A stretch of DNA of 64,000 nt from Planctomyces sp. SH-PL14 (GTDB taxonomy: Bacteria; Planctomycetota; Planctomycetia; Planctomycetales; Planctomycetaceae). The stretch is from assembly GCF_001610835.1 (NCBI RefSeq), contig NZ_CP011270.1, forward strand, positions 4,296,001 to 4,360,000, written 5' to 3'. Below the pieces are notes generated by a model. It was given only the letters and a program-made list of their open reading frames with translations, was not told the DNA's origin and did no database searches. The position numbers and the translations under genes were made by a program. This document shows positions 3,934 through 64,000 of this stretch, one piece after another (positions within the stretch are counted from its first letter, which is position 1; each line of letters begins with the position of its first letter).

Positions 3934-3983
3934 AGTAGGGTGCCTTCGCCCGCAGGAGGTCACCGTGCGCAGGACAGTCCACC

Positions 3984-4294
3984 GGGTCCAGGGGCACCCT
4001 GGTGGGGGGATGCAAGGGGGGCAACGCCCCCTTGCCCGCCGGAGGCCTGGCCGTCGAGAACTGTCTGAAGGAGCGCGTGTCCAAGCGCGGACACCGTGCC
4101 GGATGCCCCCTCACCAACCCACAGGGAGTGCAGAGCGAGCGGTGAGTCCTCAGCGCCGGTCCCACAAAGCGGACGCCCGTTGTGTCCCACGGTTCCTCAT
4201 GGAAGTGCCTCCGGCGGCAAGGGGTTGCCCCCTTGACCCCGACTGCCGTCGCACGTTGGGTTTGAGCAGACGACGCTGTGCCGGCGAGGACGGT
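3984..4294 (+). repeat. Interspersed repeat, copy A (about 310 bp)
   Basis: Copy A of a family also seen at 7298-7624, 19495-19687 and 22833-23146. It opens with GGGTCCAGGGGCACCCTGG and a G-rich/C-rich stem, then the GCCGGAGG arm, and closes with CCTCCGGCGGCAAGGGG and CCCCCTTGACCCC, so the ends form imperfect inverted repeats of more than 30 bases. An internal perfect stem GTGTCC-AAGCGC-GGACAC lies near 4077. No conserved reading frame runs through all copies. It lies between the toxin gene and the 3' end of the DinB-like gene. Confidence 0.85.
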
Positions 4295-4310
4295 GTTCGG
4301 CATGCCCAGT

Positions 4311-7172: not shown

Positions 7173-7297
7173 TGGAACGTGGGGTAAGGCGATTTGGGGC
7201 GGGGGTCATCCGAGCGGATACTCCGCGGATTCAGGAAGTCTGCGCGATGCTATGCCTCTGGTCCATGCTGTGAACGAGCGAGTGGCTTCCCTAAGAG

Positions 7298-7624
7298 CCG
7301 GGTCCAGGGGCGACCCTGGTGGGGGATGCAAGGGGGCAACGCCCTCTTGCCCGCCGGAGGCCTGGCCGTCGAGAGACATCTGAAGGAGTGAGTGTCCAAA
7401 CACGGACACGGTGCGGTATGCCCCCTCACCGAACCCGCGGGGATTGCAAAGCCAGCGGTGTGGTTTGGGTGAGTCCTCAGCGCTGGTACGACAAAGGGGA
7501 CGTCCGTTGTGTCCCACGGTTCCTCACAGAAGTGCCTCCGGCGGCAAGGGGGCGAGGCCCCCTTGACCCCAGCGGCCGTAGCACGTTGGGTTTGAGGTGG
7601 CACAGCCGCGCCGGCAAGGACGCT
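7298..7624 (+). repeat. Interspersed repeat, copy B (about 327 bp)
   Basis: Same arrangement as copy A. It opens with CCGGGTCCAGGGGCGACCCTGG and the first inverted arm, has the internal stem GTGTCC-AAACAC-GGACAC near 7392 (the loop differs from copy A while the stem is kept), and closes with CCTCCGGCGGCAAGGGGGCG, CCCCCTTGACCCC and a GCACGTTGGGTTTGAG tail. It fills the space between the DUF3386-like gene and the 3' end of the phosphodiesterase. Confidence 0.85.
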
Positions 7625-7649
7625 ATTCGACTTCCCTTCAAATCGCCGC

Positions 7650-9970: not shown

Positions 9971-12043
9971 CTAAGCTGCCGACGGATCGCGGCGGCTGTC
10001 CCACCCCCGCGTCAGGAGCGAGACGACGATCAGCGTCAGGAAGCCGAGCGGGATCGTGACGATCCCCGGCTGGCTGAACGGGACCGGGGCGTCGGCGGGA
10101 TTGAGCTTGTAGATCTCCTTGTAGGTGTCGGCACTGAGCAGGATCCAGGCGAGCGAACTCGTCATCCCGACCGTCACCGCGGCGATCACTCCCTGCCGCG
10201 TCACTCCCTTCCAGAACAGCAACATCACGAGCGACGGCAGGTTCGCCGAGGCCGCCACGCTGAACGCCCAGCCGACGAGGTAGGTGACGTTCATCTTCAT
10301 GAAGACGATCCCCAGGACGATCGCCACCGCGCCGACGACCACGGACGCCAGCTTCGCCAGGCGGACCTTCTCCGAATCGTCGAGCTCGATGCGGAAGACG
10401 TGCCCCACCAGGTCGTGCGTGACGGCCCCCGCCGCCGCCAGGATCAGGCCGCTCACGGTCCCCAGGACCGTTGTGAAGGCGATGCCGGAGATCGTCGCGA
10501 ACAGCCACTGGCTCATGCTGCGGGCCAGGAGCGGCGCCGCCATGTTCGAGTTCGTCACGTCGAGCGCGCCGCTGGTCATCGCCCCCAGCCCCAGATAGAG
10601 CGTCAGGACGTAGAACGCTCCGATGCTGGCGATCCCGACAATCGTGCTCTTGCGGGCCGCGGCGGCATCCTTGACCGTGTAGTAGCGGATCAGGATGTGC
10701 GGCAGCGATGCGGTGCCGCAGAACAGGGCCAGCATGAGCGACAGGAAGTTGATCTTGTCCTTCAGGTACGGACTGCGGATCCCCTTGAACGCCGCCGTCT
10801 CGCCGGGGCGAAGAATTTCGTTCCCCGGCGTCGGTTTCTGGGTGAAGACCGTCACGGCGCTGCCGTCCGCCTGCTTGATGGCGACCGGATCCTCCCGCCA
10901 CAGGACAACCTCGCTCTGCTGCAGCGTCGCCAGGTAGCCCGTCGGAGAGAGAGGCCCGGTCTTCGTCGCCCCCTCCGGCAGGCGGCTGATATGCCCGACC
11001 GGATGCAGCTCCGGCTCTCCGGCCTTGGTCCCCTTCGGCTGTCCGTTGACCAGCGTCTTCCCGTCCGCCGTCTTGGTCACGGTCTGCGCCTCGCGGAGCG
11101 TGACCGCCCCCTCCGGATTCTCGCTGATCGACCAGACGATGGTCTCGCCCTTGTCATCCCGCGTCCGGACATAGGGCCGGTCCTTCCACCCGTCCCCCTC
11201 CGGCGGAACCACGACCGGCATGAGGACCTGCGGCTCCGTGCCGCCCGCGTCCGGCGACGGCGGGTTCCGGAGGAGTCGGCCGGGTGCCGTCGGCCGGTCC
11301 TCGGCCCGCGATCCGGGATCGTTCGTCCCGTTCGAGCGCCATCCCGGCAGGACCCGGTCGAGCCGGTCCTTCGCGATCGGCCCGTAGGAGAGGAACTCGT
11401 GGCCGTCGTTCCCGCCGGACCGCGTCTCGAGTCCGCCGTTCAGGATCATCACGGTCAGGATCAGGCTGAAGAAGACGAGCAGCGACCCCTTGAGGAACTG
11501 GACCCACGTCGTCGAGACCATCCCGGCGGTGACGACGATCAGGATCACGACCGTCCCGACGAGCACGACGCCGACCCACGGAGCGAACCCGAACAGCGGC
11601 TGGATCAGGACCCCCGCGCCGACCATCTGGGGGATGAGGTAAAACAGACTCACGACCAGCGTGCTGATGCCGGCCGCCAGCTTGATTCCCCGCGAATGGA
11701 ACTTCGCGTCGAGGGCGTCGGCGAACGTGAACTTTCCGAGGGCCTTCATCGGCTCGGCGATCACAAACAGGGCCACGATCCATCCGGCGAGATAGCCGAT
11801 CGAGTACAGGAACCCGTCGTAACCGTAGAAGGCGATCATCCCGCAGATCCCGAGGAACGACGCCGCCGAGAGATAGTCTCCGGCGAACGCGATTCCGTTC
11901 ACGAACCACGGGATCTGCCCGTGGGCGGCGAAGTATCCCTGGGCCGACTTTGCCTTCCCCCCCAGGTAGAAGCTGAGTCCCAGCGTGAAGGCCACGAAGA
12001 GGCCGAAGATGGCGACGGCGACGAAGCTCGGTTCGTAGATCAT
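9971..12043 (-). CDS. actP: Sodium/solute symporter, ActP-like, with a long soluble insertion
   Basis: A 690-residue protein of the SSS family. The first 190 residues show typical helices, with G-D-Y-L-S-A-A-S-F-L-G near residue 55 (the sodium-site region) and M-V-G-A-G-V-L-I near residue 140. The helices resume at about residue 410 (L-F-C-G-T-A-S-L-P-H-I-L-I-R-Y-Y-T-V). Between them is a soluble stretch of roughly 200 residues that ordinary ActP proteins, about 550 residues long, lack. Family members import acetate or related monocarboxylates. The upstream DUF485 gene and this order are classical for yjcH-actP. Substrate is inferred from context. Confidence 0.87.
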   Translation of the reverse strand: MIYEPSFVAVAIFGLFVAFTLGLSFYLGGKAKSAQGYFAAHGQIPWFVNGIAFAGDYLSAASFLGICGMIAFYGYDGFLYSIGYLAGWIVALFVIAEPMKALGKFTFADALDAKFHSRGIKLAAGISTLVVSLFYLIPQMVGAGVLIQPLFGFAPWVGVVLVGTVVILIVVTAGMVSTTWVQFLKGSLLVFFSLILTVMILNGGLETRSGGNDGHEFLSYGPIAKDRLDRVLPGWRSNGTNDPGSRAEDRPTAPGRLLRNPPSPDAGGTEPQVLMPVVVPPEGDGWKDRPYVRTRDDKGETIVWSISENPEGAVTLREAQTVTKTADGKTLVNGQPKGTKAGEPELHPVGHISRLPEGATKTGPLSPTGYLATLQQSEVVLWREDPVAIKQADGSAVTVFTQKPTPGNEILRPGETAAFKGIRSPYLKDKINFLSLMLALFCGTASLPHILIRYYTVKDAAAARKSTIVGIASIGAFYVLTLYLGLGAMTSGALDVTNSNMAAPLLARSMSQWLFATISGIAFTTVLGTVSGLILAAAGAVTHDLVGHVFRIELDDSEKVRLAKLASVVVGAVAIVLGIVFMKMNVTYLVGWAFSVAASANLPSLVMLLFWKGVTRQGVIAAVTVGMTSSLAWILLSADTYKEIYKLNPADAPVPFSQPGIVTIPLGFLTLIVVSLLTRGWDSRRDPSAA

Positions 12044-12117
12044 AGAGAAGGACCAGGGTCCAGGGACGAGGGCCTGGAGGAGAGAGGCGAAGGGCGATGC
12101 CGAAGGAGAACGCGGCG

Positions 12118-12351
12118 TCAGGTCGTGGGGCCGGTCCGGGGGGGCTCATCGGCGGCGAGCGCGCCGTAGAGCAGCGACATGACGAGCGCGGCGATGATGA
12201 GGCCGAAGCCGTAGAGGATCGCCAGGTTGATCCCGCCGACGGGGGTCCACTCCATCGTTTTCGGCGAGAAGGCGTTCAGGAACACGAAGCCGCCGTACAG
12301 GGCGAGATAGATGACGAACAGCACCAGACCCAGCCGCGCATTCCGGGACAT
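12118..12351 (-). CDS. DUF485 (YjcH-like) small membrane protein
   Basis: A 77-residue protein starting MSRNARLGLVLFVIYLALYGG with two hydrophobic segments (residues 8-28 and 45-68) and the family pattern Y-G-G-F-V-F-L-N-A-F and G-G-I-N-L-A-I-L-Y-G-F-G-L-I. It lies 74 bases upstream of the ActP-like gene in the same direction, the arrangement known from acetate permease operons, where its role is unclear. The start at 12351 gives the family length. The longer frame upstream has no support. Confidence 0.88.
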   Translation of the reverse strand: MSRNARLGLVLFVIYLALYGGFVFLNAFSPKTMEWTPVGGINLAILYGFGLIIAALVMSLLYGALAADEPPRTGPTT

Positions 12352-12576
12352 GGAGACCTCGAGGAGCCAAGAAGAGAAAGGACGGCGGGCATTCTGAGGG
12401 AGCGAAGGACGCCACGCCACGCCGCCGGAGCAAAGTTTTCGACCGGGTACGGCTTCGAACCCGGTCGTGCGGTTCGCCCCCGGGAGGGCGAGGCTCCCGC
12501 CGAGCCGCAACCCGCCGACCGCGTCCCCTTCGGACCACCCCAGGCGAACTCCCCGCGCGGCAACTCTTCCGCCGCC

Positions 12577-13290
12577 TCAGCCGTTCTGCTTCGGGGGCTC
12601 GGCAGCCGGAGGCTCAGCCGCCGGAGCCTTGAGCGCCCCCTCCTGGCCCCGAATCATTCGAACGATATTGGAGCGATGGCGGAGGATGATGAGGGCTGGG
12701 ATGGCGAGGCTGAAGACGCCGAGGCTCCAGTGCTCGGAGGAGAACATGTTCGAGCCGGTGCGGATCCACTCGACGGTCGGAAACGTGAGGGCGGCGACGA
12801 GCGAGCCCATCGAGGAGACGCGCGTCACGGCGAACATCAGGAGATACGCGGCCAGGGCGAAGAGGCTGCTGATCGGTGACAGCACGAGCGCCACCCCCAG
12901 ACCGGTCGCCACTCCCTTTCCGCCGCGGAACCCGAGCCAGACCGGAAACATGTGCCCCAGGATGGCGAAGATGCCGGTCACCACCTGGACGTGGATCGAG
13001 TTCGGCGAGTCGCGGGTCAGGACGCGGGCGGCGAGGACGGGAAGGAGCCCCTTCAGCGCATCGAGAACGAGAGCGACAATCCCCCACTTCCAGCCGAGAA
13101 CGCGGGCGGCGTTCGTGGCGCCGATGTTTCCGCTGCCGTGCTGACGGATATCGACCCCTTTGGCGAAGCCGAGCAGGAGTCCCACCGGGATCGCCCCCAG
13201 GAAGTGACCGAGAATGGGACACAGCCACATCGCGATGGTGGTCGTGGCGCCGGCGGGGAGGGAATCGGCGAGGAGCGGGGGGACAGTCAT
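12577..13290 (-). CDS. plsY: Glycerol-3-phosphate acyltransferase PlsY
   Basis: A 237-residue integral membrane protein with at least five hydrophobic helices. [16 protein letters not shown] and [13 protein letters not shown] are the three conserved cytoplasmic motifs of PlsY, which transfers the acyl chain from acyl-phosphate to glycerol-3-phosphate in the first step of phospholipid synthesis. The start at 13290 (MTVPPLLAD) is the closest before the first helix. The C-terminus carries an extra Pro/Ala-rich tail ([16 protein letters not shown]). It lies upstream of the DUF485/ActP genes in the same direction, with a 225-base gap. Confidence 0.95.
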
Positions 13291-13512
13291 GCGGCGCAGG
13301 CGATTCGCTGGCAAGAAGGGAGGGGGCTCGCCGGGACAATACCCAAACCGGTCACTCCCAGCCACCGGCGTCCCGGGACCCGCACGTCGATCCGGGCGGG
13401 CGAGGCTCCGGCGAGTCGCAACCGGCAGCTCTCGTGGCCGATCAATCCTCGCTACCGCGCAGGGAACGGCTGTGCCGGGTCCCTCTCTCCTCTTCTCTGC
13501 GTCCTCCGCGCC

Positions 13513-13553
13513 CTCTGTGTTTCAAAACTCTTCCGGAGGAAGGAAACACAGAG
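13513..13553. repeat. Imperfect palindrome in the gap before the DUF1559 genes
   Basis: CTCTGTGTTTC at 13513-13523 and GAAACACAGAG at 13543-13553 are perfect arms around a loop that itself can pair (CTTCC/GGAAG). Short CTCTGTG-type repeats of this kind are common between genes of environmental bacteria. The rest of the 539-base gap 13291-13829 holds only the duplicated upstream segment described with the DUF1559 genes. Confidence 0.6.
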
Positions 13554-13730
13554 GCACAGAGATCACAGAGGAGGGCAGGCGATCCCGCGCACCGATTGGG
13601 GGTTGCGCAAACGCGTTCCCTATCCGCCACCTCGACCTTCCGCCTTAAGCCTTCCCTGGAATTCTTCCCACGATCACCGCCGGCAATCCGTACGCTTTCG
13701 CGGCAGGAATCCCCACGGGTATCCTCACCG

Positions 13731-13829
13731 GCGAGTCCTGGTCCCACTCGCCGCTTCGGGCAGCCTGTTCAGGTGACGAACGTCGGAACGCGACCGGTTC
13801 CGGTGTCGACGCCGCACGCGAGACAGCTC
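13731..13829 (+). repeat. Duplicated upstream segment, first copy
   Basis: About 100 bases (CGAGTCCTGGTCCCACTCGC through GCGAGACAGCTC) recur almost unchanged at 16590-16689, each directly before a DUF1559 gene. It shows that the gene was duplicated together with its promoter region. GTTCAGGTGACGAACG and GACCGGTTCC are the most conserved parts. Confidence 0.85.
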
Positions 13830-19494: not shown

Positions 19495-19687
19495 TGAGCC
19501 ACGGCGTTGAAGACTCCCTCACATCACACTGCTGGCTTTGCAATCCCCGCGGGTTGGTGAGGGGGCATGCGACACGTCGTCCGCGTTTGGACACGTGCTC
19601 CTTCCGATGGTGTCCGGCGAGACAGCCTCCGGCGGGCAAGGGGTGTGACCCCCTTGCATCCCCCACCAGGGTGCCCCTGGACCCGGT
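19495..19687 (-). repeat. Interspersed repeat, copy C (half element, inverted)
   Basis: On the minus strand this copy begins with ACCGGGTCCAGGGGCACCCTGG at 19687, carries the G-rich stem, the GCCGGAGGC arm, the internal GTGTCC-AAACGC-GGAC stem and ends within the middle of the element. The distal half, with the second inverted arm, is missing. It lies between the convergent ends of the second DUF1559 gene and the PVC-type cytochrome gene. Confidence 0.8.
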
Positions 19688-19719
19688 GAAATGTCTGTCG
19701 CTTGCGATGAGCTTGCTTC

Positions 19720-22710: not shown

Positions 22711-22832
22711 CGAGATCACAGTTCCGAGTCGGACCGGCGTGAGCGCGTCGGGGGTGGGTCATCCTGTCAGAATCGTTGTGGGACGTGAAGCGACTCGTCG
22801 ATTGGCACGCAGGAACATCGCTCCCCCAAGAT

Positions 22833-23146
22833 CCGGGTCCAGGGGCACCCTGGTGGGGAGTGCAGAGGGGCAAGGCCCCTTTGCCCGCCGGAGGCCCTCT
22901 CGTCGAGAGATGTCTGAAGGAGAGCGTGTCCAAGCGCGGACACCGTACCGAATGCCCCCTCACCAACCCGCAGGGATTATGGAGCGAGTGGTGAGTTCTC
23001 AACGCCGGTTCCACAAAGGGGACGTCCGTTGTGTCCCACGGTTCCTCATGGAAGTGCCTCCGGCGGCAAGGGGGCGTGGCCCCCTTGACCCCAGGCTGCC
23101 GTCGCACGTTGGGTTTGAGCTATGGAAGTCGTGCCGGCGAGGACGC
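22833..23146 (+). repeat. Interspersed repeat, copy D (about 314 bp)
   Basis: Full-length copy in the same orientation as A and B. It has the first arm with GGTCCAGGGGCACCCTGG, the internal perfect stem GTGTCC-AAGCGC-GGACAC near 22926, the second arm CCTCCGGCGGCAAGGGGGCG, and the tail GCACGTTGGGTTTGAG followed by GCCGGCGAGGACG, which is also present in copy A. It is the last copy seen in the window and ends about 185 bases before the serine recombinase gene. Confidence 0.87.
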
Positions 23147-23282
23147 GGCTCTAATCAGCCCTGTGCTGTCCCGCCAATGAATTCCCTCAAAATCAGGCGT
23201 ATTGCTCGATGGCTGCTCGCTTTGCGCTCTCTCCGGAGAGTGTCAGCGGCAGTCACGAGTAATCAGGAATAGTCATCCAGTT

Positions 23283-23330: not shown

Positions 23331-25268
23331 ATGCGAAGAAACAATCATCAATCGCCGTCCTGGAAGCACTCAGATCGAGTGTGGGTGATCATCGTCGCCC
23401 GAATCTCGACCGAGAAACAGGACGAGAGGAGTCTGGATGACCAGATCGCCTACTGCCGTAAGCGTCTGGAGGAATTGACTGACAGGCCGGTCAAAATCCA
23501 TGTCATCAAGAGTCAGGACAGCGGCGAGTATCTGGACCGCGTCGAGCTGCGTCAGCTGGAAGATCTGATCGAAAGCGGCGACTGGGACTTCGTGATTACG
23601 GAGGACCTGGGCCGCATTTGTCGGCGCTCCCATGCCCTGACGATCTGCGAAATGTGTGAGGACGCCGAGACACGCCTCATCGCCATCAACGATCACATCG
23701 ACATGGCTGAAGAAGGCTGGCGGTTGTGCTCGTACTTCGCGGCCTTCCGCCACGAGCAGTACAACCGGGACACGGCCCTCCGGATCCAGCGGAGCCAGAA
23801 GAACCGCTTCTTGAACGGAGGCGCCTTGCCCCGGCCATTCTGGGGGTACTTGGGCTGGGATAAAGCCAAGACCGACTCCGAGTTGCGGAAGGATCCGGAG
23901 GCCGAGGAACTCATCAGAGAGACCTTCCGCCGGTTGGACGATGGAGCGTCGTTCGCCGAAATCGCCGATTGGTTTAACGATTTGGGGATCCCGACCGGAC
24001 CGAGCTGCCGCCGCAAGAAGTGGACGACGATGTCGATCCAGCGGCTCGTGCGCAACCCGATCTTGAAAGGAATCCGGATCCGGAACCGGCTCGTCAGCAA
24101 GCGGATCAACAAGACCGGTCGGCGGCGCGCGGAATTGGCTCCTCAAGACGAGTGGCTGGTTCGGGAAGTTCCTCACCTGGCCTACTTTGAGTCGGCCTAT
24201 TACGACCATGTCATCCACGTGGTTAGCGAGCGGAACAAGAATATCGGCCGCCCCGCTAATCGCGACCGCCTCAGCCGGCTTGGCGTTCCACGCAAGCGGA
24301 CGACCTGGCCCCTCCAGCATGCCCGTTGTGGAATCTGTGGTCATACGATCTGGAAGGCGGGGACTCATGGTGAGCGACTGGCCTGCTGCTCTGGTGCGTT
24401 ACAGTACCGCTGCTGGAACGGCATGATGATCCAAGTCGACAACACCCAGAAATGGATTCTGGGGGCGGTCCTCGATCGGATCCGGCAGTGCACAGACTTC
24501 GCAAAGGTGGTACGGGAGCGAATCGAGCAGGCTCGGAAGGAGAACGACCTGTCCGAGCAGCGCCGCCTCTATGAGCGACAGATCACCCGCCACCAGAACG
24601 AAGTCACGAACCTGACGGACGCCATTGTGGTGGGGGGCGATATTCCGGAACTGGTCAGGCAGCTTCAGAAGGCGCGGTCCGCGCTGAATGAGGCAACTTA
24701 CCAGCTCGACAGGATCAAGTCCCAGGAGCGCGAGGCGCCGAGAGCGTTGCCTGACGCCGAGTGTCTTTACCAGCTTGTCGAGGAGACGATGCGGCTCGTC
24801 GTCAATGAGGACGACCAGGCCTCGCGTCTGCTCTGCCGGATTCTGCCCCGGATGACCCTTTACCCAGTCATCCTCTGTGATGGGCGAGCGGTCGAGGTCC
24901 AGGCGGAGGTCGAGTTCGATCTTTCCGCCGCCGCCTCCGCGCTGGTAGGGATGTCGGTTGACATGCCGTCGGAAGTCGTGACAGTCGACCTCTTCGATCG
25001 TCCTCCTTACGTCGAGCACGCCGAGAGACTCGGAACCGTCGAACAGCGGGGGGAGACCGTCGTCGCGACGGCCAAGGCCCTCGGCATGTCGCTCACCATG
25101 GCAGCCTGGGCGCGTCGGCTGTACCGTCGCATGCAGGAACTGGGGATCCAAGAACCGTACATGCGGGTTGATATGCCGCCCGCGCGCGGCTGGCGCTGTC
25201 GGCGGCACAAACATCCGCGGTACCACTTCGAACCCCAGAAGAATGACGTGCCGCCCGAAGCGGCATAG
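23331..25268 (+). CDS. Large serine recombinase
   Basis: A 645-residue site-specific recombinase. The catalytic domain starts V-I-I-V-A-R-I-S-T-E-K-Q with the nucleophile serine at residue 26, then S-L-D-D-Q and D-F-V-I-T-E-D-L-G-R-I. A recombinase domain follows at about residues 165-300 (F-W-G-Y-L-G-W, R-L-D-D-G-A-S-F-A-E-I-A, I-Q-R-L-V-R-N-P-I-L-K-G). Then comes a zinc ribbon with C-G-I-C-G near residue 335, and a coiled-coil around 400-480. Large serine recombinases integrate and excise phages and mobile islands between unlike att sites. ATG at 23331 precedes the catalytic domain directly. It marks the left side of an acquired element. Confidence 0.93.
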   Translation: MRRNNHQSPSWKHSDRVWVIIVARISTEKQDERSLDDQIAYCRKRLEELTDRPVKIHVIKSQDSGEYLDRVELRQLEDLIESGDWDFVITEDLGRICRRSHALTICEMCEDAETRLIAINDHIDMAEEGWRLCSYFAAFRHEQYNRDTALRIQRSQKNRFLNGGALPRPFWGYLGWDKAKTDSELRKDPEAEELIRETFRRLDDGASFAEIADWFNDLGIPTGPSCRRKKWTTMSIQRLVRNPILKGIRIRNRLVSKRINKTGRRRAELAPQDEWLVREVPHLAYFESAYYDHVIHVVSERNKNIGRPANRDRLSRLGVPRKRTTWPLQHARCGICGHTIWKAGTHGERLACCSGALQYRCWNGMMIQVDNTQKWILGAVLDRIRQCTDFAKVVRERIEQARKENDLSEQRRLYERQITRHQNEVTNLTDAIVVGGDIPELVRQLQKARSALNEATYQLDRIKSQEREAPRALPDAECLYQLVEETMRLVVNEDDQASRLLCRILPRMTLYPVILCDGRAVEVQAEVEFDLSAAASALVGMSVDMPSEVVTVDLFDRPPYVEHAERLGTVEQRGETVVATAKALGMSLTMAAWARRLYRRMQELGIQEPYMRVDMPPARGWRCRRHKHPRYHFEPQKNDVPPEAA

Positions 25269-25298
25269 CAAAGTGCTTCTTCAACTCCAACGGCGCTC

Positions 25299-25332
25299 AA
25301 GGCTCCGTCGATCATCGACGGAGCCTCTTTTC
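25299..25332 (+). terminator. Rho-independent terminator after the recombinase
   Basis: GGCTCCGTCG and CGACGGAGCC pair perfectly around a five-base loop and are followed by TCTTTTC. It ends the recombinase transcript just before the next small gene. Confidence 0.88.
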
Positions 25333-25347
25333 ATTTCTGGAGAAGTC

Positions 25348-25530
25348 ATGAACACCGAACCAACCTCGTCCGAATCGAGCAGCTTCCAGTTGTGGCGTCG
25401 GTTCTGGGCCCTTGTTTTTGAGCGAGTGGCGAAAGCACCGATGCCGCAGCGCCGTTGTCCTCATCTCGCCCGAACCGATTCCGAGGAAGTCACGCCTTGT
25501 CCGTCTTCCGACGCGGATACGCCCGTCTGA
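25348..25530 (+). CDS. Small hypothetical protein (60 aa)
   Basis: ATG at 25348 with an ideal GGAG seven bases upstream. The protein (MNTEPTSSESSSFQLWRRFW) has a Ser/Thr-rich start, an aromatic/basic centre around residues 15-35, and two cysteines near residues 36 and 50. No family is recognised. It follows the terminator of the recombinase and precedes the lipoprotein-like gene, so it belongs to the same mobile element. The 181 bases after it (25531-25711) may hold a further short membrane peptide, but the evidence is weak. Confidence 0.5.
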   Translation: MNTEPTSSESSSFQLWRRFWALVFERVAKAPMPQRRCPHLARTDSEEVTPCPSSDADTPV

Positions 25531-25711
25531 CCGAAGTCGCCGACGAAGCGGTCCCTTACTCCACATCTCCATCGCGAGTTTCCCATGTCGATGGCTCTCA
25601 GCCTCGTCTCCTTTGTCCTGTTGCTGGCCTGTCTCGTCATTCTGCGAGAACGCCGCCTCCGCCGCGGTTGGCAGCGTCTCCTGCAACGCATCCTCACCGA
25701 AAGAAATCACC

Positions 25712-26188
25712 ATGCATCGGATTCTGATCGTGATCCTCATCGGCCTCGTGACAGCGTGCGGATGTCATTCCGAACCGTCGGAAGCCCAGTCGACCCGGGA
25801 GTTCGTGGCCATTCAGGCCGAACAGAATCGGCGTCTGGCGGATCTGCAATCCCAGCTGCAGTCGCAGCAGACGACGCTCAACCAGCAGCGGGATGCCCTG
25901 GAAACCGAACGCCGCGAGCTGGCAGCCAAGCGTCTCCGTGATCCTGTGATCGCTGAAGCGATCACAGCCATCGGCACGCTGCTGGCCTGTCTGGCACCGA
26001 TCCTTCTGACGTGGGTCGTGTTGGGCCGCGGCAATCAGGAGCTCGACGCAGAGCTGATTGCCGACGCGTTGATCGCCGATCTGGCCTCAGGCGGCAAGTC
26101 TGTCCTCTTACCCGCTCTGCAGCCCCAGCCGGCTGCATCGCGGCTTCAGGTCAATCCCCATCTTCCTTCGTTAAAGGAGTCTCACTGA
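25712..26188 (+). CDS. Lipoprotein-like coiled-coil membrane protein
   Basis: A 158-residue protein. MHRILIVILIGLVTACGC looks like a lipoprotein signal (T-A-C-G), followed by a coiled coil at about residues 28-75 rich in Gln, Glu, Arg and Leu. A second hydrophobic segment lies near residues 82-105 (AITAIGTLLACLAPILLTWV), then an acidic helix and a short tail ending LPSLKESH. No family recognised. The stop is three bases before the DUF1257 gene start, and AAAGGAG for that gene lies inside its last codons, so the two are co-translated. It may tether the following proteins to the membrane, as inference only. Confidence 0.7.
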   Translation: MHRILIVILIGLVTACGCHSEPSEAQSTREFVAIQAEQNRRLADLQSQLQSQQTTLNQQRDALETERRELAAKRLRDPVIAEAITAIGTLLACLAPILLTWVVLGRGNQELDAELIADALIADLASGGKSVLLPALQPQPAASRLQVNPHLPSLKESH

Positions 26189-26191
26189 AGT

Positions 26192-26554
26192 ATGTCCCAC
26201 ATCGTCCATATCCAAACGGAAGTCCGCGATCCAGTCGCAATCTCCAGTGCTTGCACTCGGCTCTCGCTCCCTCAGCCAGTTCAAGGCGAGCATCAGCTTT
26301 TCACGAAGCGGGTCACGGGGTTGGGCGTTCGGCTCCCGCAATGGCAGTTTCCAGTCGTGTGTCAGATCGAGACAGGCCAAGTCCAGTACGACAACTACGA
26401 GGGTCGATGGGGAGATCCCACCCAACTCGATCGCTTCCTGCAGGGGTACGCCGTCGAAGCGGCCAAGCAGGAGGCCCGCCGGCAGGGGTACAGCGTCACC
26501 GAGCAGCCCCTCGCAGACGGCTCGGTTCGGCTCACCGTCCAGGTCGGAGGCTGA
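26192..26554 (+). CDS. Ycf35-like protein (DUF1257)
   Basis: A 120-residue protein starting MSHIVHIQTEVRDPVAISSA. The pattern S-H-I-V-x-I-x-T-x-x-x-D, V-C-Q-I-E-T-G-Q-V-Q-Y-D-N-Y-E-G-R-W-G-D and L-D-R-F-L-Q-G-Y-A-V-E is that of DUF1257, the family of plastid/cyanobacterial Ycf35. Molecular function is unknown. In this window it is the first of three genes (DUF1257, DUF2997, Ycf46-like ATPase) that keep company in other genomes, which suggests a shared complex. The preceding gene ends three bases before the start. Confidence 0.85.
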   Translation: MSHIVHIQTEVRDPVAISSACTRLSLPQPVQGEHQLFTKRVTGLGVRLPQWQFPVVCQIETGQVQYDNYEGRWGDPTQLDRFLQGYAVEAAKQEARRQGYSVTEQPLADGSVRLTVQVGG

Positions 26555-26562
26555 GCCACTCT

Positions 26563-26754
26563 ATGAAGACGATCGAAATCACTGTCACTCCCAACGGTCA
26601 GACCAAGGTCGAGACCAAAGGCTTCGAAGGAACCTCCTGCCGCCAGGCGAGCGCGTTCCTGGAGCAAGCCCTCGGCCCAAGAACGCATGAGCAGCTGAAG
26701 TCGGACTTCTATGCCGCGCAGCCTGAGGAACAGCAGACCGCGACCTCGGTCTGA
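26563..26754 (+). CDS. DUF2997 protein
   Basis: A 63-residue protein starting MKTIEITVTPNGQTKVETKG with G-T-S-C-R-Q-A-S-A-F-L-E-Q-A-L-G, the complete DUF2997 pattern. It begins eight bases after the DUF1257 stop, so the pair is co-translated. These two short families occur side by side with Ycf46-like ATPases in cyanobacteria and in mobile regions of other bacteria. The conserved cysteine near residue 27 is present. No biochemical role is known to me. Confidence 0.85.
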   Translation: MKTIEITVTPNGQTKVETKGFEGTSCRQASAFLEQALGPRTHEQLKSDFYAAQPEEQQTATSV

Positions 26755-26858
26755 GGTCCCATTCCGCATCCTTCTCTCCGCTCTCTGCCTTCTCGTGGTG
26801 GCTCACGTCGCGAGCCTCTCTCTAACACTCTTACTTTCCAATTTAAAGGAGCTTTGCC

Positions 26859-28319
26859 ATGACGCTCACCGAGCGTTTACGGGAGTCGGTCCGCGCCTGC
26901 TTCACCGGGCTGTGGATCGAATCCCACGAACATCACGACGCGCTGCTGGAGATCCAGCAGCTCTGCAGCCAGGAAGGCTGGCAACTTGCCACCTGGGACA
27001 TCGATCAGGGGCTTGTCGGTCCTGGCGCCGTAGCGGATTCGGCGACGGATCCGCTCTCGGCGATCCGGGCTCTCAGCCCCCTCGCCCAACCGGAGGGCAC
27101 GACGCTCCTCGTTCTGCAGAACTTCCACCGGTTCCTGCAGTCGGCGGAGGTCGTCCAGACGCTTTCCCGGCAGATCCTGGCCGGGAAACAGAACCGGACG
27201 TTCGTCGTCGTCTTGGCGCCGGTCGTCACGATCCCTGTCGAACTTGAAAAGCTGTTCCTCGTCCTGGAGCACGAGCTCCCGGGACGGGATCAGCTGGCCG
27301 AGATTGCTCGCGGGATCGGAACGGAGGAGGGCGATCTTCCGTCGGGCGGCGAGTTGGACACTCTCCTCGACGCCGCTTCGGGCCTCACCCGGTACGAAGC
27401 GGAAGGGGCCTTCAGCCTCTCCCTCGTCCGGCAGGGCCGGATTACCCCCGACACGGTCTGGGAGCTGAAGACGCAGGCTCTCCGAAAGAGCGGCCTGATG
27501 TCCCTCTACCGCGGCGAAGAGTCCTTCGACAGCCTGGGTGGGCTCGCCGCCCTCAAGGCCTTTTGTCGGCGATCCCTGCTCCATCCCCGCGCACAAACGA
27601 AGCCGAAAGGTGTGCTCCTGCTGGGAGTGCCGGGGACCGGCAAGAGTGCATTTGCCAAAGCCCTGGGGAAGGAGACAGGACGTCCGACCCTCTGTCTCGA
27701 CATCGGGGCCCTGATGGGCTCCCTCGTCGGGCAGACCGAGCAGAACATCCGGCAGGCGCTCCGCATCGCCGATGCGATGACGCCCTGTGTCCTGTTCATT
27801 GACGAAGTGGAGAAGGCCCTCAGCGGTGTCTCGGGAACAGGTGACTCGGGAGTCTCCTCCCGGCTCTTCGGATCTCTCCTGACCTGGATGAACGACCACA
27901 CGTCCGACGTTTACCTCGTCGCCACCTGCAATGACATCTCCCGCCTTCCCCCGGAGTTCTCTCGGGCAGAACGGTTCGACGGGATCTTCTTCTTGAACCT
28001 GCCCGGCCGGGGCGAGCGGGAAGCGATCTGGCGGCTCTACATCGAGCAGTTCGGGCTCGATCCCGATCAGAGGCCGGCAGACGAGCAATGGACGGGAGCA
28101 GAGATCCGGGCCTGCTGCCGCTTGGCGGCGCTCCTCGATCTGCCGCTCGTTCAGGCGGCTCAGAACGTCGTGCCGGTCGCCGTGACCGCCGCCGACTCGG
28201 TCGATCGGCTGCGGAACTGGGCCAGCGGACGGTGTCTTTCGGCAGACCAGCCGGGAATCTACACCGCTGGTGCCAGTCCCAAGACGTCCCGGCGGAAGAT
28301 CGCCCCCTCGACCAACTGA
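26859..28319 (+). CDS. Ycf46-like AAA ATPase
   Basis: A 486-residue AAA protein. The N-terminal 210 residues resemble the degenerate AAA-like domain of Ycf46. The active domain has the Walker A G-V-P-G-T-G-K-S at residues 256-263, Walker B V-L-F-I-D-E-V-E-K with D315/E316, sensor A-T-C-N and the arginine-finger region S-R-A-E-R-F-D. A helical lid follows (W-T-G-A-E-I-R-A-C-C-R-L-A). AAAGGAG lies eight bases before the ATG. Ycf46 in cyanobacteria is linked to photosynthesis or inorganic carbon regulation, which cannot be the role here, so a chaperone-like or remodelling function on the element's own partners is more likely. Confidence 0.9.
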   Translation: MTLTERLRESVRACFTGLWIESHEHHDALLEIQQLCSQEGWQLATWDIDQGLVGPGAVADSATDPLSAIRALSPLAQPEGTTLLVLQNFHRFLQSAEVVQTLSRQILAGKQNRTFVVVLAPVVTIPVELEKLFLVLEHELPGRDQLAEIARGIGTEEGDLPSGGELDTLLDAASGLTRYEAEGAFSLSLVRQGRITPDTVWELKTQALRKSGLMSLYRGEESFDSLGGLAALKAFCRRSLLHPRAQTKPKGVLLLGVPGTGKSAFAKALGKETGRPTLCLDIGALMGSLVGQTEQNIRQALRIADAMTPCVLFIDEVEKALSGVSGTGDSGVSSRLFGSLLTWMNDHTSDVYLVATCNDISRLPPEFSRAERFDGIFFLNLPGRGEREAIWRLYIEQFGLDPDQRPADEQWTGAEIRACCRLAALLDLPLVQAAQNVVPVAVTAADSVDRLRNWASGRCLSADQPGIYTAGASPKTSRRKIAPSTN

Positions 28320-28343: not shown

Positions 28344-28703
28344 TCAGCCGAGGATCTCGACCAACGTCAGAAAGGCTTCCCGGATCCGCTGGGAGGGGAC
28401 TTCGGCCCCTTGTGCGGCCTTATACAGCAGGAGCGCTGCATCGAGGCCGTGGGAGCTTTGCAGATCGGATGACGCGGAAGCCGACTTCGATTTGGCGGAC
28501 ACCTTGGCCCGCGTCCGGGCGGACTTTACCTTCGACTTGGCCTTGATCACCGACACCATCTGCGGGGAAACGGTAATTCCCTGCACGCGAAGCGCCGCCA
28601 CGATCTCCTTCGGCTTGGCCTCCGGGTTCTTCTCCAGGTATTCGCGAATCGCGGCGGACTTGTTGACGGACGTGCCTTCTGCCGTGGTGGCTTTCTTGGC
28701 CAT
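28344..28703 (-). CDS. Small basic DNA-binding-like protein
   Basis: A 119-residue protein (MAKKATTAEGTSVNKSAAIR). The N-terminal half (A-I-R-E-Y-L-E-K-N-P-E-A-K-P-K-E-I-V-A-A-L) looks like a helix-turn-helix, and the centre is Lys/Ser/Ala-rich like a histone tail (SKVKSARTRAKVSAKSKS). A last helix (R-I-R-E-A-F-L-T-L-V-E) may dimerise. I have seen this N-terminal pattern in several planctomycete proteins, with no assigned function. It is divergent from the element's right-hand genes and preceded by a promoter with palindromes, so it is a plausible repressor of the element. It is convergent with the ATPase gene. Confidence 0.75.
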   Translation of the reverse strand: MAKKATTAEGTSVNKSAAIREYLEKNPEAKPKEIVAALRVQGITVSPQMVSVIKAKSKVKSARTRAKVSAKSKSASASSDLQSSHGLDAALLLYKAAQGAEVPSQRIREAFLTLVEILG

Positions 28704-28937: not shown

Positions 28938-29903
28938 ATGTCCACGACGACTCTCGAGGAGCCGGAGACGGCGACTCTTCAGGCGATCCAGGCCGCTCAG
29001 CGGCTTCGGACGACGATGGCCGCCACCCGAGTCAGTTTCACCTGGTTGGGAGTCCACAAGACCCTCAGTCCGGAACAGAAGGCTCAGGCCGCGGACCGCT
29101 TCGATGCCGAGGCGAAGTTCATCTCCGCCAGCAAGAAGCTGCTCGATACTCAGCATCCCCGGTTCCGGGCCGTTACGGCGGTCCGGGGCAAGATCCTCCA
29201 GCACTGGAAGGATCAGACACTTCCCTACCCCGAGCCAGGAGTGCGGCTCATCCAGCAGAAGGAGATTGACCGCTTCGACCGGACGCTGCAGGCGTACCAG
29301 CGGGAGCTGGCTCGGGCGGTTTCTGACCTCGACTCCACCTATGCCGAGCTGAGGGACGTGGCGCGGGAGCGGTTGGGACGGCTGTTCAATCCATCCGACT
29401 ATCCCATTTCGCTCCGGGATGAGTTTGCGGTGACGTGGGACTTCCCGGGTGTGGAACCGCCGAACTACCTCCAGCAGCTCAATCCGGCCCTCTACGAGCA
29501 GCAGTGCCAGCGGGTCCAGGCCCGCTTCGACGAAGCCGTTCAGCTGGCCGAGCAAGCGTTCCTGGAGGAACTGTCGAAGCTGGTCGAGCATCTCGCCGAG
29601 CGGCTCTCCGGGGCCGACGATGGAAAGCCCAAAGTCTTCCGGGACTCGGCCGTCGACAACCTCGGGGAGTTCTTCGATCGCTTCCGGCGGCTCAACGTCC
29701 GCTCGAACGAGCAGCTGGACGGGGTCGTCGAGCGGGCGCGGAACCTCGTCCAGGGCGTTCAGCCCCAGGAGCTGCGGGACAACGCCCAGCTGCGGGGCCG
29801 AATGGCCACCCAGCTCTCGAACGTCCAGGCCTCGCTCGATGGCCTGATGGTCGACCGGCCGCGGCGGTCGATCCTCCGGAGCCCCAGGTCGGAGACACCG
29901 TGA
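28938..29903 (+). CDS. Hypothetical helical protein of the mobile element
   Basis: A 321-residue protein (MSTTTLEEPETATLQAIQAA) that is predicted to be almost entirely helical. It contains a long coiled-coil-like centre (L-Q-A-Y-Q-R-E-L-A-R-A-V) and a C-terminal region ending R-R-S-I-L-R-S-P-R. No family is recognised; in length and pattern it faintly resembles DUF3150 phage proteins, but I am not confident. AGGAG lies 10 bases before the ATG. The stop overlaps the next gene (TGATG), so the two are translationally coupled and likely act together. Confidence 0.65.
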   Translation: MSTTTLEEPETATLQAIQAAQRLRTTMAATRVSFTWLGVHKTLSPEQKAQAADRFDAEAKFISASKKLLDTQHPRFRAVTAVRGKILQHWKDQTLPYPEPGVRLIQQKEIDRFDRTLQAYQRELARAVSDLDSTYAELRDVARERLGRLFNPSDYPISLRDEFAVTWDFPGVEPPNYLQQLNPALYEQQCQRVQARFDEAVQLAEQAFLEELSKLVEHLAERLSGADDGKPKVFRDSAVDNLGEFFDRFRRLNVRSNEQLDGVVERARNLVQGVQPQELRDNAQLRGRMATQLSNVQASLDGLMVDRPRRSILRSPRSETP

Positions 29904-30157
29904 TGGAGCTGGTCATCAGTCCTTCCGGCAAGATCACAACGATCTACAGCGAAGTCCTGAATCTGGCGGCCCTCGGCGCCCAGCGGATCGAACGGGCCAG
30001 CCATGTCGAACCGGATGCTTTTGGCCGCTGGTTCGCCCAGATCATCGATGGGCCGGTCTTCGGCCCGTTTGAGCGGCGATCCGAGGCGATCGCCGCCGAG
30101 CTCGCCTGGCTGACGGTCGCTCTGCGCCAGCCGACGACGCATGCCGGCGTCCACTGA
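29903..30157 (+). CDS. Small hypothetical protein coupled to the helical gene
   Basis: An 84-residue protein (MELVISPSGKITTIYSEVLN) whose ATG overlaps the stop of the preceding gene. It continues I-E-R-A-S-H-V-E-P and W-F-A-Q-I-I-D-G-P-V-F-G-P-F-E-R-R-S-E-A-I-A-A-E-L-A-W-L, which looks like a small alpha/beta domain. No known family. The tight overlap makes a shared function with the 321-residue protein likely. A terminator follows 30 bases downstream. Confidence 0.65.
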   Translation: MELVISPSGKITTIYSEVLNLAALGAQRIERASHVEPDAFGRWFAQIIDGPVFGPFERRSEAIAAELAWLTVALRQPTTHAGVH

Positions 30158-30235: not shown

Positions 30236-30475
30236 ATGTCATTGCGCCTTAAGAGTGCCTTTGACGGTTTCGCCAGTCCCGCGAAGCAGGGGGGCCTCGC
30301 TCCCCTCTCACAAGCCGAGCTGTACCGGCAGGTCTCTCGGGCCACCGGGGACCCGGTCGCCGAGATTGAGCGGCGGGGGTTTGTCCCGCTGACGCCATTC
30401 CCGGTCGAGCGTGATCATGATGGAGTCGAGGTGGACTTGGACGGCTTCGAGTTGCAGTGGAGCCTGATGGCTTAG
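30236..30475 (+). CDS. Small hypothetical protein (79 aa)
   Basis: A 79-residue protein beginning MSLRLKSAFDGFASPAKQGG with GGAG eight bases upstream of the ATG. The sequence is mixed helix and loop: Y-R-Q-V-S-R-A-T-G-D, then P-F-P-V-E-R-D-H-D-G-V-E-V-D-L-D-G-F. No family is recognised. It is the last tightly packed gene of the element before a 240-base gap with GC-rich repeats and the single-pass membrane gene. It has its own start signals after the terminator at 30185. Confidence 0.6.
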   Translation: MSLRLKSAFDGFASPAKQGGLAPLSQAELYRQVSRATGDPVAEIERRGFVPLTPFPVERDHDGVEVDLDGFELQWSLMA

Positions 30476-49179: not shown

Positions 49180-49213
49180 CGCCCGGCTGTGACTGACTAC
49201 GAAAACTTCCACC

Positions 49214-50131
49214 ATGGCCCGCAAGAAAAGCTCCCGCACGACCAAGAAGACGACAAAGAAAAAACCCTCCGGCCCACGGGCCAGCTGGCGGGGGACGGTC
49301 CAGCTCGGCCTTGTGACGTTTGAGGTCAACGCCATCAACGCCCACGCCCCGCAGGAGGACCGCGTCTCCTTCCACCAGCTCCACAAGGAGTGCCACAGCC
49401 GCATCCGCTATCAGAAGGTCTGCCCCGTCCACGGCCCCGTCGAGCAGGATGAGATCGTGAGCGGCTACGAGTACAGCAAGGGGAAGTACGTCGAGATCGA
49501 CGCCGACGAGCTCGAAGCCCTCAGCTCCCGCGAGGATCGCTCGCTCACCATCGACGCCTTCATCTCCCCGGACGAAATCGACCCGATCCACTTCGACGGC
49601 CGGATGTACTACCTCTCTCCGTCGACCGACGCCGCCCGCGAGCCGTACCGCATCTTTCTCAAGGCGATGAAAAAGAAGGACCGCTGGGGTGTCGGCCAGG
49701 TGATCTGGTCCGGCCGCGAACAGCTCGTCGTCCTCCGCCCCTACGAGGACGCCCTCCATATGGCGATGCTGAACTACGAGGCCGAGATCCGCGACCCCGC
49801 GGACACGATCACGCCCCTCCCCACCACGGCGCCGCCCGCCCGCAGCGTCCGCCTGGCGGAGCAGCTCATCGACTCCTGGAGCGACGACAAGTTCAACCTC
49901 GCCGCGTACCACAACGAGTACTACGAGAAGGTGAGCGGCATCATCGACGACAAGGTCAAAGGGCGGGAGACGGTCGAGCCCGAGGTCGAAGAGAAGCCCG
50001 AGGTCATCAACCTCATGGACGCCCTTAAGAAGAGCATGGAGCACACCGTCCATCGCCGCCGCCCGGCGACTTCCACCCCCCGTCGTACCACGCATCCCCG
50101 GTCGAATCGCTATCGTTCGAGTGGTCGCTGA
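49214..50131 (+). CDS. ku: Ku end-binding protein
   Basis: A 305-residue protein. After a Lys/Thr-rich N-terminal tail (residues 1-20) comes the Ku core: S-W-R-G-T-V-Q-L-G-L-V-T, C-H-S-R-I-R-Y-Q-K-V-C-P, G-Y-E-Y-S-K-G-K-Y-V and I-D-A-F-I near residue 115. The C-terminus is basic. Bacterial Ku is a homodimeric ring that holds DNA ends for LigD. The basic N-terminal extension is unusual, since most bacterial Ku proteins carry the basic tail only at the C-terminus. It is the second gene of the operon. Confidence 0.95.
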   Translation: MARKKSSRTTKKTTKKKPSGPRASWRGTVQLGLVTFEVNAINAHAPQEDRVSFHQLHKECHSRIRYQKVCPVHGPVEQDEIVSGYEYSKGKYVEIDADELEALSSREDRSLTIDAFISPDEIDPIHFDGRMYYLSPSTDAAREPYRIFLKAMKKKDRWGVGQVIWSGREQLVVLRPYEDALHMAMLNYEAEIRDPADTITPLPTTAPPARSVRLAEQLIDSWSDDKFNLAAYHNEYYEKVSGIIDDKVKGRETVEPEVEEKPEVINLMDALKKSMEHTVHRRRPATSTPRRTTHPRSNRYRSSGR

Positions 50132-61106: not shown

Positions 61107-61524
61107 TCCGAGACGAAGATTGCCCGGTGACGCGAACCAGCAAGGGGTATTGCCGAACTGCCTAGAGTCGACCGCACACGGGCCAGGCGAGTGTGAAGAA
61201 CATGACCGACCGCTTCAAGCCGAAGCAATCCCGGGGGCGGGATCAGAGCAGGCGATCACTGGTCCGCTCACCGTCCCCCGGGGGCTGGTGCGACAAACAC
61301 TCGACCGGGCATCAGCCCTGACCGAGCGAGAGTGTCGGCGGCTGCCGGACCAAATCCGACACTCCAGCGTGTCATCCGAGCAGAGAACATGCCTCGCCGC
61401 CCTAGGAAGATCCTAGGAACACCCCACAACTTCGGAGGGATTGAAAGAACTCCACAAGGCGAAAAGAGGTGCCTCATCGCGCCGCAGCGCGATCGCCATT
61501 CGTGCCACGGCTCGGTTAGTCGGA
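61107..61524. other. Gap, no supported gene
   Basis: 418 bases without a supported gene. A short stretch near 61250-61320 in one frame reads L-T-V-P-R-G-L-V-R-Q-T-L-D-R-A-S-A-L-T-E, a faint echo of the winged-helix N-terminal module, too short to claim. Confidence 0.4.
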
Positions 61525-61755: not shown

Positions 61756-61789
61756 GCTGTTCCCCCGTTCGGGCCCCGTCGCAGGATCG

Positions 61790-63867: not shown

Positions 63868-64000
63868 CTGGAAGTCGTTCTGCAGAAGATCAATGACCGG
63901 GGACGGGAACAGAGGCGGTCCTTCAACCTCGCCCCGTTTAGTTATCCCAGGGCCATTCGTCCAAAGCACTCGGCAGAGTGGTCCCTGCCCAAGCGTGAGA

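Follow-up and report, generated by a model that had tools for sequence, protein, structure and literature searches.

The window analysed here is a stretch of 64,000 bases from Planctomyces sp. SH-PL14 (contig NZ_CP011270.1, positions 4,296,001 to 4,360,000), in which a cassette centered on a Ycf46-like AAA ATPase lies behind a large serine recombinase gene. The cassette genes are all on the plus strand and follow the order DUF1257 (Ycf35-like; 26192 to 26554), DUF2997 (26563 to 26754), the AAA ATPase (26859 to 28319), a coiled-coil protein that profile comparisons place with DUF3150 (28938 to 29903) and two conserved small proteins, S1 (84 amino acids; 29903 to 30157) and S2 (79 amino acids; 30236 to 30475). 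This is the common core order, and the cassette reaches 30475. We annotated 206 loci with iterative family profiles; the two scans that contributed to them kept the best 80 loci each, so the counts apply to the closer relatives of the AAA ATPase of the window. S1 was present in 56 of the 206, and S2, which we count as core in planctomycetes, was present in 27.

A sequence-only reading of the window had already placed a cassette here, with gaps of 3, 8, and about 100 bases, and the open reading frame (ORF) coordinates bear this out: 3 bases separate a short lipoprotein-like gene from DUF1257, 8 separate DUF1257 from DUF2997, and 104 separate DUF2997 from the AAA gene. The tight grouping of DUF1257, DUF2997, and AAA also held, but the lipoprotein-like gene, which had been counted within the unit, is optional, and three further core genes extend beyond the AAA gene. 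As for the family calls, Pfam agreed on the recombinase, the AAA ATPase (1.4e-28), and DUF2997 (PF11211; 6.3e-17; 61.6 bits against a cut-off of 24.1, covering model positions 1 to 47 of 47). The window's DUF1257 protein fell below the cut-off for PF06868 (0.0021; 18.7 bits against 22.2) and was placed instead through its iterative family, which comprises 137 ORFs in 129 of the 206 loci and includes proteins above the cut-off from phage HJ05 (34.6 bits) and from a divergent locus of the host genome (copy F, described below; 27.4 bits).

Copies of the cassette and its core proteins

The host genome (G000) is one contig of 8,442,773 bases, and DUF2997 occurs in it six times: in five copies of the cassette (A to E, copy A being that of the window) and in a divergent chromosomal copy F (L036, 11239 to 15980), which has a radical SAM gene beside it. 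The AAA proteins of copies B to E are 92 to 94% identical to that of copy A, while for that of copy F the identity drops to 35%. When the five regions were aligned, they revealed a shared block whose start coincides with the DUF1257 start codon or falls no more than about 20 bases from it and which spans DUF1257, DUF2997, AAA, the coiled-coil gene, S1, and S2, with variable genes in the interval between AAA and the coiled coil; copies D and E share additional sequence upstream of the DUF1257 start. S1 was recognized by BLAST in copies A, B, and C and by profile in D and E, and S2 is common to all five. All gene pairs tested among the copies are under purifying selection, with ratios of nonsynonymous to synonymous substitution (dN/dS) of 0.07 to 0.09 for AAA, 0.09 to 0.17 for the coiled-coil gene, 0.11 to 0.18 for DUF1257 (leaving out the interrupted gene of copy C), 0.09 to 0.28 for DUF2997, and 0.20 to 0.36 for S1 (compared for A, B, and C only). 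Five copies in one genome, the high identity of their AAA proteins, and purifying selection together put the cassette beyond a chance arrangement. Between copies A and C, synonymous divergence (dS) is 0.44 for AAA and 1.08 for the coiled-coil gene; because the AAA genes differ less at silent sites, this suggests exchange among the copies. At 96.6% identity, window positions 61520 to 64000 also match sequence downstream of copy D, and copies C and D have further common blocks that are about 90 to 98% identical.

The AAA protein retains GxxGxGK and DE as invariant motifs in an alignment of nine sequences. Its C-terminal half conserves the motor residues and has Cdc48/VCP proteins as its closest solved structures by sequence. 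The N-terminal half lacks a Walker A motif; profiles of the two halves aligned over 150 columns (E of 0.0014, probability of 18%), and the N-terminal half is likely, but not proven, to be a degenerate AAA domain. The one cyanobacterial AAA protein compared, which is carried by a Geminocystis plasmid, is 34% identical to the window protein.

The window's coiled-coil protein had no Pfam match to DUF3150 (PF11348) at an E of 1. Even so, of the 93 ORFs gathered iteratively from it, 90 also appear in the family seeded with an annotated DUF3150 protein of a Manganitrophus plasmid (90 ORFs; Pfam 1.9e-9 for the seed). In addition, the coiled-coil profile matched an annotated DUF3150 protein from Cupriavidus (162 bits), which itself scores 22.1 bits against the Pfam cut-off of 24.9, and a hypothetical protein from Burkholderia (149 bits), neither of which played a part in building the profile. 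By these profile comparisons, the cassette protein is DUF3150-like. The Cupriavidus and Burkholderia genes are both flanked by genes for an ATP-binding protein and a VWA-like protein, which in Cupriavidus are an AAA_5-like ATPase (0.00031, just under the cut-off) and a DUF2201 protein.

DUF1257 and DUF2997 are naturally fused in one protein at five loci (L165, L168, L208, L212, and L220). AlphaFold2 models of such a fusion from a Clostridia genome and of the coiled coil were confident (mean predicted local distance difference test scores of 89.4 and 89.9, respectively), though they gave no lead on function. Sequence comparison of the two with solved structures gave best E values of 0.012 to 0.087, and Foldseek searches with the models returned nothing at an E of 0.001 or better. 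The best VIA-align rows had Z scores of 9.8 (root mean square deviation of 2.5 over 96 residues, a helical bundle) and 6.9 (2.8 over 76 residues), values in the range that the tool's notes call common, and the structure searches do not demonstrate a new fold for either protein.

In 33 aligned DUF2997 sequences, G12, G23, and C26 are invariant. The cysteine bears on an alternative account, in which the cassette would be a cofactor- or metal-insertion chaperone like MoxR/CbbQ that acts on an iron-sulphur or radical-SAM enzyme, with the DUF2997 cysteine and the ferredoxin or radical-SAM neighbors serving that purpose. The radical SAM gene adjoining copy F fits this account, as do the AAA_5-like and VWA-like neighbors of DUF3150 elsewhere, a family annotated as 4Fe-4S in Treponema that recurs in 14 AAA loci, and the cyanobacterial cluster duf2997-ycf35-fed7 described in PMC4284462. 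However, the 14 loci, judged within 5.5 kb of AAA, include none from the host genome and no GTDB planctomycete locus, and we regard a cofactor chaperone as improbable.

Two further genes at the locus lie outside the core. The lipoprotein-like gene (25712 to 26188, plus strand), a short coiled-coil gene with a lipobox judged by eye, belongs to a family found in 12 of the 206 loci, the window included, every one of them planctomycete; it is not common to copies B to E, and we rejected it as a core member in the host genome. The small antisense gene between AAA and the coiled coil (28344 to 28703, minus strand) has no Pfam family above cut-off, its family search returned itself alone, and other genes occupy the slot in copies C, D, and E. 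Elsewhere in the window, a dispersed repeat of about 320 bases occurs at 3981 to 4299, 7285 to 7631, and 22825 to 23151, with a shorter inverted piece at 19502 to 19695; its copies are roughly 80 to 88% identical, and many more are present in other stretches of the genome. Two adjacent genes at 46483 to 50131 look LigD- and Ku-like by eye alone.

Occurrence in phages, plasmids, and planctomycetes

DUF2997 was found in 44 of 294 genomes sampled from the phylum and in 78 of 170 genomes of the family, with up to eight copies per genome; among 14 control genomes, DUF2997 or DUF1257 was present only in Synechococcus elongatus. The window's AAA and DUF2997 proteins both match PHROG families (phrog_8638 at 2.5e-86 and phrog_23133 at 2.6e-7, respectively), so phages possess the two. 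A tblastn search with the window AAA matched 128 phage records and 1331 plasmid records. A single place covered at least 80% of the protein in 16 plasmid records and in no phage record, and many of these matches are therefore to the AAA domain alone. We opened seven named phages and found AAA, DUF1257, and DUF2997 together in four (L070, L071, L258, and L260) by Pfam or family profiles, which showed no DUF1257 and DUF2997 in the other three (L076, L259, and L261). Among five plasmids opened, DUF1257 and DUF2997 were both present in four (L072, L073, L075, and L077) and neither in L074; the coiled-coil profile matched L072 only.

Wider counts were made over AAA loci flanked by 4 kb or more on each side. 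In 54 viral contigs, the coiled coil was present in 41, DUF1257 in 33, DUF2997 in 32, S1 in 12, and a window-type recombinase in 2. In 41 loci from named genomes, the corresponding numbers were 8 for the coiled coil, 26 for DUF1257, 29 for DUF2997, 7 for S1, and 1 for the recombinase. The module also occurs on viral contigs of about 200 kb, one of which (L179, 204 kb) additionally has a terminase gpA match (1.1e-7). For GTDB planctomycetes, DUF2997 served to select the loci: an initial 20 stretches, taken from about 65 places listed, yielded 18 loci, of which 16 had the coiled coil, 16 S1, 15 S2, 6 the lipoprotein-like gene, and 2 the recombinase; ten further planctomycete stretches were fetched later.

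The sequence-only reading had proposed a phylogeny of the Ycf46-like proteins. In our AAA tree (FastTree, 193 proteins), the window copies and other planctomycete copies with a coiled coil fall in a clade of 66 rows (local support of 99), in which 32 rows are cellular with a coiled coil, 31 are viral, and 3 belong to neither group. Within it, a clade of 44 rows holds 30 cellular coiled-coil rows, 12 viral rows, and 2 others. Copy F sits in a separate cellular group without the coiled coil. The clustering with viral rows suggests a phage origin of the planctomycete copies and does no more than suggest it, because the tree, built from sequences other than chromosomal cyanobacterial or plastid Ycf46, is midpoint rooted without bootstrap and has several long viral branches.

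Photosynthesis is not the main setting of the module, as it is found in phages, plasmids, and viral contigs and its planctomycete copies group with viral ones; on the distribution in the phylum, the family, and viral contigs, we rejected a photosynthesis-linked role as the main setting. The sequence-only reading had judged photosynthesis unlikely to be the ancestral role, and its own refuting test does not go against it: the cassette is neither nearly absent outside phototrophs nor without shared neighbors there. The accompanying claim of a mobile-element location stands for the phage and plasmid relatives; at the window copy, we found no element ends. Nor did the few window proteins scanned with Pfam and PHROG include a phage structural gene that would point to a prophage at the locus. 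At the left ends of the copy D and E units there is a shared site (L030 at 6839 and L033 at 9555), dyad-like in D, that may be an attachment site; with up to 3 mismatches, it occurs at those two places only in the host genome, and the stretches read contained no right end to match it. We rejected a tRNA integration site, because the window has no tRNA and the single one in eight neighboring loci lies away from the edges of the shared block.

Serine recombinases beside the cassette and inside DUF1257

The large serine recombinase gene of the window (23331 to 25268, plus strand) ends upstream of the cassette and encodes a protein that matches Pfam Resolvase (4.6e-13) and Recombinase (1e-14) as well as phrog_95 integrase (7.6e-51). 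The host genome has ten PF07508 matches, two of which are pieces of one gene, giving nine recombinase genes. Five of the nine lie less than 4 kb from a DUF2997 gene (expected 0.05; p of 7e-10), and five of the six DUF2997 genes have a recombinase within this distance; a sixth recombinase adjoins another Ycf46-like AAA gene without DUF2997. The association is looser elsewhere. In 13 other genomes, 3 of 40 recombinases lie within 4 kb of DUF2997 (expected 0.14) and 7 of 40 within 12.5 kb (expected 0.42), and a recombinase accompanies 3 of 28 DUF2997 loci at 4 kb and 6 of 28 at 12.5 kb, the 28 including chromosomal-type copies without the coiled coil (L087 and L089). With so few of these loci having one, the recombinase is a frequent but not obligate companion, and we discarded an obligate link.

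The recombinases beside the copies differ widely (25% identity between A and B, 35 to 37% between B and D or E, 94% between D and E, and no match between A and D), which means that gene traffic at the site is real. This is what might be seen if a recombinase element carried the cassette as an ordinary or chance grouping of genes with no joint function. That explanation is already contradicted by the recurrence of the same genes together across viral contigs and several bacterial phyla and by purifying selection, and we consider it very improbable.

The DUF1257 gene is itself a site of insertion. In copy C, it is split by an insert of about 3 kb (L027, about 10773 to 13752) carrying a recombinase gene, now broken, on the opposite strand. 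DUF1257 of genome G238, where the recombinase gene is uninterrupted, is split at the same codon, the ends of the two inserts are similar, and each insert contains a complete second DUF1257 gene. The copy-C recombinase, used as a query, matched 27 of the 170 family genomes. Twenty loci were read with flanks of up to 1.5 kb. Five of them (L027, L274, L275, L278, and L279, from G000, G238, G316, G384, and G299) combine a split DUF1257 with a complete copy carried by the insert, and the remaining 15 showed no DUF1257. The insertion codon lies at VEK in three genomes and at GRW in two, whose recombinases are 45 to 46% identical to the query. Five genomes need not mean five insertion events, since G238 and G316 belong to one genus and their recombinases are 98% identical. 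In the window copy, DUF1257 is not an insertion target.

Candidate functions and known systems

In cassettes of sister planctomycetes, we found two continuations after S2. Type U, present at ten loci in five genomes (L078 to L082 and L084, all in G238, along with L085, L090, L096, and L102) and permuted in L106, has the order DUF1257, DUF2997, AAA, coiled coil, S1, S2, a ubiquitin-like protein (Ubl), an E2-like candidate (E2x), a JAB peptidase, and E1; in L085, the AAA gene lies in two frames. Pfam assigned the E1 to ThiF (1e-15; 58 bits against 28.1) and the Ubl to ThiS (9e-6; 26.6 bits against 22.5), and the JAB protein came just short of Prok-JAB (3e-5; 24.2 bits against a cut-off of 25). 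A KIEG motif is conserved in the Ubl, with either a few residues or a longer tail after it. On the viral contig L213, E2x, JAB, and E1 lie about 3 kb from AAA. Between DUF2997 and AAA, several type U loci have a 197-amino-acid gene (8291 to 8884 in L079) that looks TOPRIM-like by eye and has no Pfam match. Type C, to which copy B belongs, consists of a 454-amino-acid family without a Pfam match, with or without a PD-(D/E)XK nuclease (4e-31); a likeness of this family to sliding clamps was noted by eye, and we do not claim it. The E1 and 454-amino-acid families co-occur in one locus only (L107). Copies A, C, D, and E showed neither extension in the stretches read, and searches at an E of 1 of the window and of the sequence retrieved around copies B to E gave no match to Ubl, E2-like, JAB, or E1. 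Across the 170 family genomes, the E2-like protein gave 76 matches in 44 genomes. At least 38 of the 76 lie within 10 kb (3.6 to 8.1 kb) of a listed DUF2997 gene, a lower bound given that many contigs are short, and in single-contig genomes at least 18 of 25 do.

Defense genes are a second recurrent neighborhood. According to PADLOC, cassette loci contain type I methyltransferases, a protein resembling DrmMI/type IIG, and the DISARM protein DrmD (1068 bits). Across 14 genomes, a DUF2997 gene lies within 12.5 kb of 4 of 18 HsdM_N matches (expected 0.13) and of 5 of 12 DrmD matches (expected 0.14). Pooled, this is 9 of 30 against 0.27 expected, an enrichment of about 30-fold with a Poisson p of 2e-11 that is overstated, because both markers were picked after they had been sighted near cassettes and the positions are not fully independent. 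As the host genome has no HsdM_N, DrmD, or E2-like match, the defense and ubiquitin-like contexts stem from the sister genomes.

We can state with high confidence that the six genes form a module. That it remodels proteins is probable given its Cdc48-like AAA protein. Whether it does so in defense or in conflict between elements is more tentative, and our confidence there falls at or slightly below the midpoint. Taken as a whole, the view that the cassette is a mobile-element module around a Cdc48/p97-like AAA+ protein, remodeling targets in element conflict or defense, is one on which we are evenly divided. The mechanism that we propose is modeled on Cdc48 biology. The C-terminal half of the AAA protein would be the motor, its N-terminal half probably being a degenerate AAA domain, and the AAA ring would extract or unfold a protein target selected by the coiled-coil, DUF1257, DUF2997, and S1 proteins. 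The DUF3150-like coiled coil could act as an adaptor or scaffold, with DUF1257, DUF2997 (with its one invariant cysteine), and S1 and S2 as partners or substrate-recognition parts. The likeliest target would be a nucleoprotein complex belonging to a genetic element that invades or competes; the machine may serve phages and plasmids in conflict or replication and cells in defense. Since sister operons encode a ThiS-like Ubl, an E2-like protein, JAB, and a ThiF-type E1, a tag-then-extract pathway is possible. In type U systems, the target may be tagged by Ubl, E2-like, and E1 (with the JAB peptidase encoded as well) before its extraction, in the way that Cdc48 works with ubiquitin. The window copy would be a version without the tagging genes. 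The sequence-only reading had offered a remodeling machine or a defense system; given the Cdc48-like AAA protein, the DISARM and restriction-modification (R-M) enrichment in sister genomes, and the tagging genes there, either role is plausible.

Several observations weigh against this interpretation. On the side of tagging, E2x has no Pfam match, and its HPHV..D..CxG motif and cysteine pairs, which we take to be typical of bacterial E2-like proteins, were judged by eye. The whole host genome has no E2-like match at 1e-10, and 7 of the 25 single-contig E2-like matches are not near DUF2997, five of them in G429 and G318, two genomes with no DUF2997 match. On the side of defense, besides the post hoc choice of markers, only 9 of 34 DUF2997 loci in the 14 genomes are near HsdM_N or DrmD, and the host genome has neither. 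No cassette protein scanned (all but S2) matched a PADLOC model over its full length, the matches to IetA being confined to the AAA domain; PADLOC runs on 36 coiled-coil proteins gave six families, each matched by at most three members and none by the window protein. Finally, the coiled-coil profile matched none of the seven named phages opened, and in named tailed phages AAA lies near replication genes, which would also fit a replication role.

This last point keeps a replication role open. In such an account, the cassette would be a replication or maintenance machine whose AAA protein remodels initiator, helicase, or partition complexes of phages, plasmids, and integrated elements, with the planctomycete copies as element cargo retained for the benefit of the element itself. 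Lysis genes are annotated upstream of AAA in four of the seven phages (L070, L258, L260, and L261), and a DnaB helicase gene lies downstream in three (L258, L259, and L260). The downstream protein of L071 is replication protein O-like (Pfam 5.6e-5, below the cut-off; PHROG 5.8e-4), and L259 has a downstream protein with a weak match of this kind (0.0085). The PD-(D/E)XK nuclease downstream in some planctomycetes and the recombinases close to five of the six host DUF2997 genes are also in keeping with it. However, a recombinase lies within 4 kb of only three of the 28 other planctomycete copies, and Ubl, E2-like, JAB, and E1 together with DISARM and R-M neighbors would be unexpected for a replication factor. 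Because of these neighbor genes, we favor conflict with phages or elements and consider a replication machine possible but unlikely.

A more ambitious version of the conflict interpretation, which we regard as doubtful, is that the module is a bacterial counterpart of the ubiquitin-Cdc48/p97 segregase, spread by phages and elements, with recombinase elements targeting and replacing its DUF1257. Ubl, E1, E2-like, and JAB proteins would tag and untag an invader target, and the Cdc48-like AAA, with DUF3150, DUF1257, and DUF2997 adaptors, would dismantle it. The tagging arm and the nuclease-associated arm could be interchangeable ends of a common core, the window copy having the core only. The recombinase elements would hit the module's DUF1257 and repair the damage with their own copy.

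The genes for Ycf35, DUF2997, and Ycf46, as known from cyanobacteria and plastids, have no assigned function, and the cassette proteins belong to the same families. Unlike those genes, the cassette has the AAA gene in the same block, together with DUF3150-like, S1, and S2 genes, in several copies, and has relatives in phages, plasmids, and non-photosynthetic bacteria. In the cyanobacterial cluster reported in PMC4284462, the DUF2997 and DUF1257 genes are likewise adjacent. The type U loci resemble the bacterial operon type 6d of Iyer et al. 2006 (PMC1779556), described there as encoding Ubl, E2-like, JAB, and E1 proteins: these main parts recur in the sister loci, where the Ubl is ThiS-like and has a glycine close to its end and the E1 is of the ThiF kind, alongside E2-like and JAB proteins. 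They differ in that these genes follow a Cdc48-like AAA gene and five other genes in one row (the main text of PMC1779556 has no word starting with "AAA"), and the window copy differs in being without the four tagging genes.

Chaperone pairs of a MoxR AAA protein and a VWA protein offer an analogy of motor plus adaptor. A plasmid-borne DUF3150 gene between those for the AAA_5-like ATPase and the DUF2201/VWA-like protein resembles such a pair; the cassette differs in having a Cdc48-type AAA, with DUF1257 and DUF2997 in place of a VWA protein, none of which was found among the cassette genes scanned. The AAA domain of the cassette also resembles IetA of the IetAS system (PADLOC 1.4e-20, NCBIfam 3e-18), but the match covers that domain only, at 66.1 of 510 bits, and no subtilase is among the cassette proteins scanned. 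Our searches of the open-licence literature listed no paper on a module of AAA, DUF1257, DUF2997, and DUF3150 and none on DUF3150.

The pairing of ubiquitin-like conjugation with a p97-type AAA protein is otherwise familiar from eukaryotes; the sister genomes have a ubiquitin-like conjugation set and a p97-type AAA gene in one gene row. Viewing Ycf35, DUF2997, and Ycf46 as parts of a module of phages and mobile elements that has a Cdc48-like motor would provide a biochemical frame open to testing. The recombinase elements found within DUF1257 offer an independent and readily testable system of site-specific integration.

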